Source of the DNA: Clostridia bacterium
GTDB taxonomy: Bacteria > Bacillota > Clostridia > UMGS1840
DNA length: 64,000 nt
Direction: 5' to 3'
NCBI GenBank assembly: GCA_017625695.1
Contig: JAGAKI010000076.1
Coordinates: forward strand, 62,001 to 126,000
Shown here: positions 57,594-61,863 of the stretch, in pieces
How positions within the stretch are numbered: the first letter of the stretch is position 1
How the letters are laid out: the number at the start of each line of letters is the position of its first letter
The notes under the pieces: generated by a model
Seen by the model: only the letters and a program-made list of their open reading frames with translations
What the model was told of the DNA's origin: nothing
Database searches by the model: none
Made by a program: the position numbers and the translations under genes

Positions 57594-60500
57594 TTAGTTG
57601 TCGCCTTTTACATCTACAATTAAAACTAATCTGGTTTCACCATCGTAATTGTAAATATAAATAAAATCATCGTTATCTAATTGATCAGCAGAACGATAAT
57701 CATATGTATTTTTATCCGTTTCCGCATCTAAGATAGTTGTCACAGTTACTTTGTCTCTTCTCACGTTAATCTGATATGCAACAGTATTCAACATAACGTA
57801 ATAATCGTCAATTCTGTCTTCGTCATAAGCTTCAGTATAATTTCTTTCACCGTTTACAAATGTATCAGCATAATTATTTGCATCTACTAAGCGGACTGTG
57901 CTTACGCTAACGGCATATCCCTTCCCTGCTGTTGCGAAACCTGCAAGTTTACATTCTGCTGCTTGCGTTGACATCATAGTTTCTGCGATCGCTTTTGCTT
58001 CAGCTTCTGAAGTCGGTTCAGAATAGTTTTCGGTTGATAAAAATGTATGATTTGCATCGCTTTCTAAATATGCTGTTTCATAAGTACCGTTAATTGCATT
58101 GTCCAATACAACATATCCTTCTTCTGTTTTCTTTGCCAATACCAGCGCATCTGTGATTTCGTCAATCCGGTTAATGGTATAAAGTGCTGCGTCGCCGTTA
58201 TCAAGATTTTTAGCAGCTTCACTTGCATTATCTGCAACACTAAATGAAACTTCTTCTCCGTTAACATAACCCCAATATTTAATTTTTTCCGGGTTATCAG
58301 TAGTAGGAACAACCGCCCGTTTGGTAATGATAATAGGATAGGAATCTGGATTAATGATAGAGGATGTGGTATTGTAAGTAAAAGAAAACAGCAACTCGTT
58401 GGAGGAATCAATAACACCGACGCCTTTGTAGTTTTCTCCGTCAATCAAATCCATTTTTGTGACCAGAGCAGTATTTTCTTTGGAAACATCAGCAGCTTTT
58501 CCGGCAGAAGTACCGGTCAATACAGTTGCATCCGTAATTTTATAATTACCGAAAGCATTATTTCTGTAGGTGGAATCGAAAGATACAAATTGTGTATTTT
58601 CCAATACATTACCCATATGAATTCCGCTTAAGGTATCAACCCGTCTGATTTCATTTTTATCGTTTATCCGATATGCGATCAATTCCCCTCTTGGAAATTC
58701 TTCTGCAAGTGCAACAGCACTGTCAAATGTAATCCGTTCTCCGTTAACCACAGAAGATAGCAGATGCGATTCCTGTTTGCCGTCTTGGTTTAAAATTTGT
58801 AATGTACAGATTGGTTCAAATGTTTCGCTATAATACACTTCTGTAATTACGCCATAGGATATGTCAGATAATACTTCTTGTGTGTCTTCAATCGGTACTT
58901 CGTATAAAATAACCGCCAGAGCATTTTTATTCATATCATACAAAATACCGTAATTGTAGTTTTGTTCATTTTCAAGTATTTCAAAATCAGAAAGAACGAC
59001 ATTATTCTCTGTAACGTCTCCCTGTGCACCGTCTGTTACAAAGAAAATGGTATCTTCGGTAATAAAGTAGCTGCCCAATTTGGCGTTATTACGTCTATAC
59101 TCACCGCTGACAGTTCCGATTCTCTCACCGTTTTTCAGCGTATTAGAGGTACCGCCACCCTGCACATCATAAGCACAGATTTCATTATTTTCATTTAAAT
59201 AATAAGTAAGAATGGAACCAACCGGGAATGAGCTTTCAAAAATGGTTATATTTGGATAATTAGTTGTGACACCATTAACCTTTTTCGCAAGATTGTAAAC
59301 CTCTACATTCCCCTCTTGTGTCATCAGTTTCAACTGATAATCAATATCAAACTCTTCCCAGATACCGACGTCTAAAATAACTCCGATATTTGCATCAAAA
59401 GCAAATTGGTATTTCACAATTACATCGTCACAGGCCACAAATTCGATACTGTCACCCACTGCAACATCGGAATACTCTTCGGTTAACATCCGATAATCAG
59501 TACCTCCAATCGTGTATCGGGTACAGCCGGAAGAACTATTGATATTGGTTACTTCTCCTACTATAGTTTTCGTATTTTCTACTGTAATGTCGTAGAAAGT
59601 ATATCCACTGTCATAGGATTCTTTTACACGAACCAATTGTCCTTCTTTCATCTCTTCAATGCTGAGGTTGGATTCAAATAATGTGTAACTGTCTTCCTCA
59701 TCCAAATAAAGAGCAGAGCGTGTAAATGTTCTCATTGCATCAAAATCTGCAAACACACGATAATTAGCCCGGTTGATGCTTCCGATTAAAAACGCTTCCT
59801 CGTAATCGATATAAACTGTGTCATATAAACCGTCTATATCGGTATCTACATAACGATATTCAGTGATACAGTCATGATAACCAGGAACAATATCGTAAAC
59901 AGATGCAACTTCATAATTTTTATATACAGAGACTTCATCTGCTAACGGCAATCGGGATGTGTTAGTTGCTGTTTCGGATGCATAATACTCTGCTTCATTA
60001 TTTCCGTTATCAGTGGTTACCAGATCAATAGGTTTTATGGAAATGGTTTGATTGTATTCTTCAATTGGTGCTGCCCACCATAAATAATACGTACCGTCAT
60101 CTAAAATATTCAGCATCACACGACAATATAATCCCTGCACTTCATAGAGGTTATTATTCCGTGTAGAAACTGTAATGGTGTCTCCGATAACAAAATCTTC
60201 TATCGTGTAACCGGCATCTTCTGCACCTTCAAATAATAATACATGATCCAAAATTTCAAATGATACATCGGTTTCATTATTATGTAAGGGTGCATAGGCA
60301 ATTTTACCATCAAACTGTACAAATTTATAATGGTCAACATTAGAAACGATGAGTTCGTTACCACTGTATGTTTCATTGACGCTACCTTCCGGAGATAATG
60401 TTTCTAAAGAGTCTAACATAATCGCTTTGAAACGGTATTCCTGCAGAGCCGGATTTGTTAAACGAATCTCAGCGGTGTATGGTCTGCAATAATGATCTGC

Positions 60501-60797
60501 AAACGGATTTTCTATTGTAATCGGGAAATAAAACACATCGACTAACAGATTGTTTTCTCCATCATACACAGGAATGTAACATTCTGTAGAAAGGGTGCCC
60601 ATCCCTCCGGCTTCACCATAAAAATTGATTGAAACTTTTGCCAAATCTTGTGACATAAATGTTACATTTGAAATGGAGTAACTAAAATCCTGTTCTGTAA
60701 TTCCTTTTTCAACGATTTCTTCTGATGCAAAAGCCACGGTTGTCAGCAGCATGATAAATGCTAAGAACAATGCGAGAGTTTGTTTCATTTTTTTCAT
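57594..60797 (-). CDS. Large secreted protein with three degenerate repeats, unknown function
   Basis: A 1067-residue exported protein. The start at 60797 (MKKMKQTLALFLAFIMLLTT) gives a standard signal peptide with cleavage near AFA, and AAGGAAGG precedes it; the frame extends 64 codons upstream into the leader RNA but lacks sense. The rest is beta-rich and acidic. Three diverged units of about 175 residues share a VNG...F...GxxxxYxxNxxxEI pattern (near plus-strand 59165-59395, 58630-58860 and 58110-58330). No catalytic motif or SLH or LPXTG anchor was recognised. It could be a cell-envelope or extracellular structural protein. Its leader has strong RNA structure. Confidence 0.8.
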   Translation of the reverse strand: MKKMKQTLALFLAFIMLLTTVAFASEEIVEKGITEQDFSYSISNVTFMSQDLAKVSINFYGEAGGMGTLSTECYIPVYDGENNLLVDVFYFPITIENPFADHYCRPYTAEIRLTNPALQEYRFKAIMLDSLETLSPEGSVNETYSGNELIVSNVDHYKFVQFDGKIAYAPLHNNETDVSFEILDHVLLFEGAEDAGYTIEDFVIGDTITVSTRNNNLYEVQGLYCRVMLNILDDGTYYLWWAAPIEEYNQTISIKPIDLVTTDNGNNEAEYYASETATNTSRLPLADEVSVYKNYEVASVYDIVPGYHDCITEYRYVDTDIDGLYDTVYIDYEEAFLIGSINRANYRVFADFDAMRTFTRSALYLDEEDSYTLFESNLSIEEMKEGQLVRVKESYDSGYTFYDITVENTKTIVGEVTNINSSSGCTRYTIGGTDYRMLTEEYSDVAVGDSIEFVACDDVIVKYQFAFDANIGVILDVGIWEEFDIDYQLKLMTQEGNVEVYNLAKKVNGVTTNYPNITIFESSFPVGSILTYYLNENNEICAYDVQGGGTSNTLKNGERIGTVSGEYRRNNAKLGSYFITEDTIFFVTDGAQGDVTENNVVLSDFEILENEQNYNYGILYDMNKNALAVILYEVPIEDTQEVLSDISYGVITEVYYSETFEPICTLQILNQDGKQESHLLSSVVNGERITFDSAVALAEEFPRGELIAYRINDKNEIRRVDTLSGIHMGNVLENTQFVSFDSTYRNNAFGNYKITDATVLTGTSAGKAADVSKENTALVTKMDLIDGENYKGVGVIDSSNELLFSFTYNTTSSIINPDSYPIIITKRAVVPTTDNPEKIKYWGYVNGEEVSFSVADNASEAAKNLDNGDAALYTINRIDEITDALVLAKKTEEGYVVLDNAINGTYETAYLESDANHTFLSTENYSEPTSEAEAKAIAETMMSTQAAECKLAGFATAGKGYAVSVSTVRLVDANNYADTFVNGERNYTEAYDEDRIDDYYVMLNTVAYQINVRRDKVTVTTILDAETDKNTYDYRSADQLDNDDFIYIYNYDGETRLVLIVDVKGDN

Positions 60798-60824
60798 TAG
60801 AAACCTTCCTTTCTTTTTTTGAAA

Positions 60825-61000
60825 ATAAAAAAGTGTGCGAACAATCAAAAGCCCGCACACCGAAAAATGCACTGCTCCGATTGCTGGCACACAATTTTCA
60901 TTTCCTAAGATTGGGTATATGAAAAACAGAGTGTACATTTTTACCAAAACAGTAAAAGAGTATACACCTAATCTTAGAGAAATATTCAATTGTGTGCCAA
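60825..61000 (-). promoter_or_regulatory. Structured leader RNA upstream of the repeat protein
   Basis: The predicted transcript starts near 60998. A closing helix joins 60989-61000 to 60885-60896 (TGGCACACAATT pairing), with a second helix of 60970-60977 with 60905-60912 inside it. A terminator hairpin follows (60833-60839 with 60854-60860, then a U-run at 60825-60832). The GGCACAC/GTGTGC pieces occur four times, so alternate pairings that turn the terminator on or off are possible. It does not match any riboswitch consensus I know. Confidence 0.65.
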
Positions 61001-61004
61001 GTTC

Positions 61005-61033
61005 AGTATAACATACTTCTTTTTAATATGCAA
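61005..61033 (-). promoter_or_regulatory. Sigma-A promoter of the structured leader
   Basis: On the minus strand TTGCAT (61028-61033) and TATACT (61005-61010) are 17 bases apart. The predicted start falls exactly at the 5' end of the closing helix of the leader RNA. Confidence 0.75.
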
Positions 61034-61055: not shown

Positions 61056-61863
61056 TTATTTTTCATAAGAGATAATTCTGTCATTTCCGGCACCATAAGC
61101 ATAGGAATATATCACGCCGTCAGTTAAGTCAATGATATAAAATGTGACTGATGTATCTTTTGCAGTATTCGCCACTTTTTTAATTTCTTTCGCAACATAG
61201 TCACCATTATTGGGATATGCGGTTGCTTTCGCACCGTAAAACGCTGTGTTTGGTGTAGATACTCGAACAATGTCGGTAGTAATTCTCTGCCCTGTGATAT
61301 CGGTATAAGCCAAAGTTCCGTAACAATCATTATGTAAATGGCCATGAATATTTCCGATAATTTTTGCCTGGTTTTTTCCGGCATAATGATAAGTAATTGT
61401 CTTTTTAGTTATGGTATCATTATGAATGGTTTTCCATGAATCATTTACTTTTATCGTATACGATTCTCCTGCTTCATAGGCATTTAAGATACCAATCACA
61501 TCTTTTGTAACATCATAATCGGTCCACTGTGCAGAACGATAATAAAAATCAAGCGGAATATGGGATAAAATGAGAATTTTCCAATCCGCTGCATCTTCTT
61601 TTTGAGATAGATCAAGAGATTTCATCAAAAATTCTCTTTATTCATAAGAGACGCCATAGCTACCCGTTCCGCTTAAATAATCGCAGGTATTTAAAGCAAT
61701 TACACGAACCTTCTGAAATGGAAAATCTGTATATCCATAGGAACGTTTCGGATTCAATCCGCTGACCTCGAAATTGTTGTAATGCCCGATGGCAGACCAT
61801 TGCCGTATAATATCACTAAAATATAAAGGAAAAGTTTTCTTATCATTCAGATAAAAATCCTTT
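61056..61863 (-). pseudogene. Decayed calcineurin-like metallophosphoesterase
   Basis: The frame reads continuously from about 61863 to 61056 except for a TAA at 61638-61640, where family sequence expects an amino acid; TAA differs by one base from CAA (Gln). GHYNNFEV and RVIALNTCDYL upstream of the stop, and LILSHIPLDF and GNIHGHLHNDCYG after it, are parts of one metallophosphoesterase. The N-terminal metal-binding half (DXH, GDXXD and GNHE) is missing: coding sense starts abruptly right at the stop codon of the DUF896 gene, suggesting a deletion. A 190-residue frame after the stop (61056-61628) cannot form the full active site. Confidence 0.85.

Follow-up and report, generated by a model that had tools for sequence, protein, structure and literature searches.

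Here we describe an RNA element, encoded upstream of a gene for a 1067-aa protein, that is probably a cis-acting transcription attenuator of a new structured leader RNA family. Its anatomy, promoter spacing, competing pairings, and gene context were established from sequence and by comparison of homologous copies. An undescribed leader riboregulator had been proposed here from the sequence of this one copy (the original prediction), and the proposal is supported by homologous leaders in many genomes, covarying helices, and the lack of an Rfam match. We offer a switching model whose five conserved segments make it directly testable in vitro with short transcripts.

Anatomy of the leader element

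The window (the whole stretch of DNA analysed, 64,000 nucleotides in length) holds a single copy of the family, as judged by a search with covariance model R1. This copy, its promoter, and the gene that it precedes comprise the following features:

61028..61033 (-): -35 box TTGCAT (forward-strand ATGCAA), 17 nt from the -10 box
61005..61010 (-): -10 box TATACT (forward-strand AGTATA); expected transcript start at ~60998, first base of P1
60827..61000 (-): entire leader element (model R1, 136.5 bits, E 8.8e-26)
60988..60999 (-): P1 closing helix, 5' strand; 12/12 complementary to 60885..60896, with covariation
60962..60977 (-): P2, 5' strand; 88% complementary to 60905..60920, with covariation
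60951..60957 (-): segment 1, 5' strand of the P3 hairpin (fold, covariation, duplex energies)
60939..60945 (-): P3 hairpin, 3' strand GGTAAAA (fold); overlaps segment 2
60928..60942 (-): segment 2 (AAAAATGTACACTCT); partner is segment 1 (P3) or segment 3 (pseudoknot)
60921..60927 (-): U-rich bulge GTTTTTC, joining segment 2 to the P2 3' strand (alignment)
60905..60920 (-): P2, 3' strand (complementarity, covariation)
60885..60896 (-): P1 closing helix, 3' strand (complementarity, covariation)
60879..60884 (-): conserved linker GCAATC, directly 3' of P1; belongs to the antiterminator 5' strand
60863..60878 (-): segment 3 (GGAGCAGTGCATTTTT); forms the pseudoknot with segment 2 or the antiterminator with segment 4
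60841..60860 (-): antiterminator 3' strand (GTGTGCGGGCTTTTGATTGT), i.e. terminator 5' arm and loop; pairs with 60867-60884, -16.0 kcal/mol
60851..60860 (-): segment 4, terminator 5' arm (covariation)
60833..60842 (-): segment 5, terminator 3' arm (covariation)
60827..60832 (-): terminator U-run, U6 (sequence)
60804..60813 (-): Shine-Dalgarno region (GAAAGGAAGG) (sequence)
57594..60797 (-): putatively controlled gene; product of 1067 aa with a signal peptide and without a Pfam match above cut-off

The promoter predicted at 61005-61033 thus consists of TATACT and TTGCAT, 17 nt apart on the minus strand. The closing helix, the second helix, and the terminator with its U-run, all named in the original prediction, were likewise recovered, the closing helix one base away from where it had been placed. 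The downstream protein had been described as a large secreted repeat protein; its length and signal peptide agree with this, but self-BLASTP revealed no internal repeat and no Pfam family was detected above cut-off. The U-rich bulge may serve as a recognition loop.

The leader RNA of the window folds at -64.8 kcal/mol, compared to a shuffle mean of -39.4 (sd 4.1, z -6.2), and none of 200 shuffles was as stable. Duplex energies in this copy are -7.4 (P3), -14.4 (pseudoknot), -16.0 (antiterminator), and -17.2 kcal/mol (terminator); the short P3 was counted against the attenuator model. Searches with Rfam 15 at gathering thresholds gave no family match in the window, and searches of 20 relatives at E<=5 gave no significant match overlapping it, in agreement with the earlier failure to recognise a known RNA consensus; only tRNAs and chance matches, all outside the elements, were returned overall. 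Term searches of the main texts of PMC8040213, PMC11109978, and PMC8632094 did not find a description of the motif.

Upstream of the promoter, positions 61056-61700 (-) encode a metallophosphoesterase-like fragment, carrying an in-frame stop in the 5' part and lacking an intact start, which is probably a decaying gene. Frames resembling DUF896- and DUF1653-type small proteins were seen by eye upstream of this fragment.

Covariation, competing pairings and proposed mechanism

Across 106 distinct sequences, 95.8% of cells in the 38 pairs of P1, P2, P3, and the terminator are paired, compared to 33-57% (at most 56.5%) when the strands are slid against each other, a figure that leans towards the modelled helices because these served to fit the alignment. 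Changes on both sides were found in 30 of the 38 pairs of the modelled structure, including all 12 of P1 and all 9 modelled pairs of P2; the two helices of the original prediction therefore covary, as do two helices that it had not named. The pseudoknot (2:3) and the antiterminator (3:4) were absent from the model used for alignment. For the pseudoknot, formed by AAAAAUGCAnnCUCU of segment 2 and GGAGnnnUGCAUUUUU of segment 3, 95.2% of cells are paired, against 29-67% (maximum 67.4%) in the slid control, with both-side changes in 8 pairs. For the antiterminator, formed by segment 3 and the terminator 5' arm, the corresponding values are 92.2% against 30-58% (maximum 58.1%), with both-side changes in 5 pairs, a number reached by 84 of 500 shuffles. 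That the antiterminator shows fewer such changes is due to the near invariance of segment 3; the pairing is supported instead by the slide control, by its covariation score, and by the exchange of partners between copies.

In this swap test, mean energies (kcal/mol) with own and swapped partners were -15.8 and -14.0 for the pseudoknot, -16.2 and -14.7 for the antiterminator, -16.6 and -13.2 for the terminator, and -9.5 and -7.3 for P3, and in each case none of 2000 permutations reached the observed value. Since relatedness among the sequences inflates shuffle-based tests, it is the slide control and independent subtypes that carry the argument. In 24 copies segment 2 has changed from A to G, still able to form G-U with the U of segment 3, and opposite this A/G column segment 1 has a C in 17 copies; both pairings of segment 2 are thus served. 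Divergent copies, inspected by eye, keep the pseudoknot with other letters (GUA with UAC in L022; GUGU with ACAC in L006), and pairing of the linker with the terminator loop can be followed by eye in L027, L031, and L005.

Because bases are shared, these pairings are mutually exclusive: segment 2 is common to P3 and the pseudoknot, segment 3 to the pseudoknot and the antiterminator, and segment 4 to the antiterminator and the terminator, which leaves two self-consistent states. The attenuation logic of the original prediction is thereby conserved across the family, and on comparative evidence the element possesses the mutually exclusive expression platform of a riboswitch. The particular exchange that had been suggested, in which GGCACAC and its complement pair P1 with the terminator, is possible and strong in the window copy (-11.5 kcal/mol) but is not the main conserved alternate pairing of the family, in which it is weakly kept (mean -7.1 with own and -6.7 with swapped partners, against -15.8 and -16.2 for the two conserved alternate pairings).

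From this arrangement we infer the regulation itself, the nature of the signal, and the state that the signal would favour. Transcription would start at the first base of P1, and P1, P2, and P3 (1:2) would fold as the RNA emerges. Segment 3, just 3' of P1, would then choose between segments 2 and 4. If segment 2 is kept in P3, segment 3 would form the antiterminator (3:4) and polymerase would continue into the gene. With segment 2 released from P3, the pseudoknot (2:3) would form instead, freeing segment 4 for the terminator (4:5), and transcription would stop after ~170 nt. The element would in effect be a five-segment alternator, in which 1:2 with 3:4 gives read-through and 2:3 with 4:5 gives termination.

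The trigger would most likely be a small molecule or ion sensed directly by the P1-P2-P3 domain, in the manner of an orphan riboswitch, and the outcome would be that mostly secreted and surface proteins are tuned to one physiological signal. We tentatively extend this to a new riboswitch class, a reading we hold at somewhat less than even confidence, in which one small molecule or ion controls much of the secretome of uncultured gut Clostridia, the switch having spread inside genomes as a complete promoter-sensor-terminator cassette and orphan copies acting in trans or as decoys.

The same attenuator anatomy could instead respond to a dedicated protein that binds the RNA at P3 or the U-rich bulge, a possible but less likely trigger. 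The conserved unpaired bulge and the GCAATC linker could be protein sites, and a single protein with many unrelated leaders as targets would suit a regulon of up to ~25 members. However, the CAT_RBD domain (LicT/SacY) and CsrA are each missing from all 20 element-rich genomes examined, and ANTAR is missing from the genome of the window and from 10 of the 20; control of the LicT/SacY, CsrA, and ANTAR types is disfavoured by these counts.

Family distribution, promoter cassette and downstream genes

BLASTN of whole genomes identified relatives of the leader in 15 of 60 related genomes, where they precede different genes, and 27 of these relatives were used to build model R1. The leader is therefore not peculiar to one gene but a member of a multi-copy family. 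R1 detects 16 copies in the genome of the window and 25 in an uncultured Monoglobus (G058); a congener has 8 and an order-mate 13. A few of the weakest matches in these per-genome counts are antisense or marginal. One leader in another genome (L007 in G001) is 85% identical to that of the window and precedes a similar gene start. Among 391 genomes of the class, R1 found the element in 99, which belong to 57 of 222 genera. A search over the phylum matched the genome of the window alone out of 300 and none of the other 299, a result that doubles as a control of specificity. A pattern scan of named genomes returned 59 matches, all in uncultured Clostridia (Oscillospiraceae, Ruminococcus, Ruminiclostridium, and Monoglobus) and mostly in gut metagenome assemblies. 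It is unusual for a structured RNA to be missing from Rfam when one in four of the genomes sampled from a class carries it, with up to ~25 copies each; the uncultured, mostly metagenome-assembled origin of the named matches would explain why the family has been overlooked.

A search of plasmids gave no match, and pattern searches of viral contigs found nothing. One copy (L190) lies beside ClpB-like and YicC-like genes in MT835845.1, a record labelled 'Bacteriophage sp.' that looks like a bacterial chromosome mislabelled as phage; a phage or plasmid origin of the element was rejected on these grounds.

The cassette runs in the order sigma-70-type promoter, P1, P2, P3, linker, and intrinsic terminator. 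Of 141 copies, 131 have a -10 box, whose end lies exactly 4 nt ahead of model position 1 in 101 of these, and the spacing from -35 to -10 is 17 nt in 94 of the 99 family promoters having both boxes. This fixed spacing indicates that the transcript begins at P1 and that the promoter is part of the cassette. Two or three tandem cassettes, each with its own promoter and terminator, precede one gene at L061, L051, L043/L101, L186, L023, and L170.

At least 89 of 142 copies have a Shine-Dalgarno sequence and a start codon no more than 60 nt behind them, mostly at 15-30 nt, this being a lower bound because the gene caller misses some downstream genes (e.g. behind L051); in 16 further copies these signals lie within 160 nt, and in 9 others a tandem copy comes next. 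The element is in this respect a conserved structured domain in a sense-oriented 5' leader, as riboswitches are. By a simple heuristic, a signal-peptide-like start is present in 55 of 81 distinct downstream proteins and in 51 of 361 background proteins (Fisher p 2e-21), i.e. two-thirds of downstream proteins are secreted- or lipoprotein-like, compared to 14% of the background. LRR_5 was the Pfam family of 20 of 82 downstream proteins, and Cu_amine_oxidN1, SLH, RCC1, CAP, and NPCBM were also present, as were small proteins of MazE/AbrB-like and zinc-ribbon type. In function the downstream genes are varied, and they suggest no obvious metabolite. The element points to one signal co-ordinating secreted and surface proteins in gut Clostridia, among them proteins with BspA-like leucine-rich repeats, S-layer domains, and copper-amine-oxidase-like domains. 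Two families of small proteins recur: a Cys-rich one (MIIDGPTGIELIPGNGGKDCPGNGEN...CCCDEC) behind L152, L153, L162, L166, L029, and L120, with several copies in one genome, and an acidic one (M-DYKKLYFHLFGKVADVIE...) behind L154, L156, L157, and L022.

Several of the 142 copies have, by inspection, no close sense gene. The best-scoring copy of all (L072:1433-1600) is followed by a convergent gene and no sense gene; as it is intact, elements without an obvious target do exist. In the genome of the window, the sequence behind L155 (C46:103475-103639) and that behind L158 (C63:86167-86359) are similar, non-coding, and without a sense gene; these two copies are possibly stand-alone RNAs or relics. 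A purely cis-acting switch leaves such copies unexplained, and a role in trans is conceivable.

Taken further, the ~170-nt terminated RNA would itself be what the cassette makes: a small RNA, encoded in many copies and acting in trans, with downstream genes expressed by read-through only. Nearly every copy, including each of the tandem cassettes, has its own promoter, and nearly every copy its own terminator, and L112, L181, and L189, in addition to L072, L155, and L158, have no sense gene behind them. We nevertheless regard this as improbable, given the clustering of translation starts at a short distance behind most copies and the strong bias of downstream genes to secreted proteins, and the conserved antiterminator would be purposeless in such an RNA.

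It is still less likely that translation of a leader peptide, opened by a start codon in segment 2 (AAAAAUG), sets the choice of structure. An ATG or GTG does occupy this position in 101 of 109 copies, but the alignment shows no evident Shine-Dalgarno upstream, the in-frame ORF is anywhere between 1 and 31 codons long or runs through the element without a stop, and divergent copies (e.g. L022) lose the start codon yet keep the 2:3 pairing.

A palindromic, MITE-like mobile element that landed here by chance, raised as an alternative in the original prediction, is very improbable: the inverted repeat is long and copies per genome are many, but these copies are not near-identical (the sole full-length DNA match in the genome of the window is the element itself, the others being short and 72-85% identical), they keep a fixed orientation and distance to genes and a promoter outside at fixed spacing, their helices are preserved by compensating changes, and plasmids and viral contigs were without matches. 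Equally improbable is a c-di-GMP riboswitch of new fold. Surface proteins are typical c-di-GMP targets, the genes behind the element encode surface and secreted proteins, and the genome of the window has 4 GGDEF matches, but no GGDEF match was found in six element-bearing genomes of at least 92% completeness (G001, G004, G025, G081, G085, and G094). For c-di-AMP, diadenylate cyclase (DAC) is present in 20 of 20 carrying genomes, which is uninformative because the enzyme is widespread, and Rfam ydaO matched neither the window nor the 20 relatives.

Relation to known attenuators

The proposed attenuator resembles several known systems in part. It shares with LicT/SacY RAT elements a leader hairpin that overlaps the terminator, but is far larger than a RAT and occurs in genomes without the cognate protein domain. 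As in T-box leaders, a long structured leader offers a choice of terminator and antiterminator in Clostridia; unlike these, it is not matched by the Rfam T-box model, whether in the window or in the 20 relatives searched, and its targets are not aminoacylation or amino-acid genes. With trp-type attenuators (1:2 and 3:4 versus 2:3) it has in common a chain of exclusive neighbouring pairings ending in a terminator, whereas it has five segments and no evident leader peptide, and its 2:3 pairing spans a closed multi-helix domain as a pseudoknot and would lead to termination, not antitermination.

Terminator-type riboswitches (purine, SAM-I, c-di-GMP-II) likewise combine a conserved 5'-leader structure with antiterminator/terminator exchange, place the terminator just before the ribosome-binding site, and are reused before several genes, sometimes in tandem. 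In contrast to these, the element has its promoter within the conserved cassette and is without an Rfam match, conservation of its linker, antiterminator, and terminator almost matches that of the putative sensor part, and its targets are mostly secretome genes. As a kind, the element would be a transcription attenuator, set apart from other attenuators by its conserved promoter cassette, five-segment chain, and breadth of regulon.
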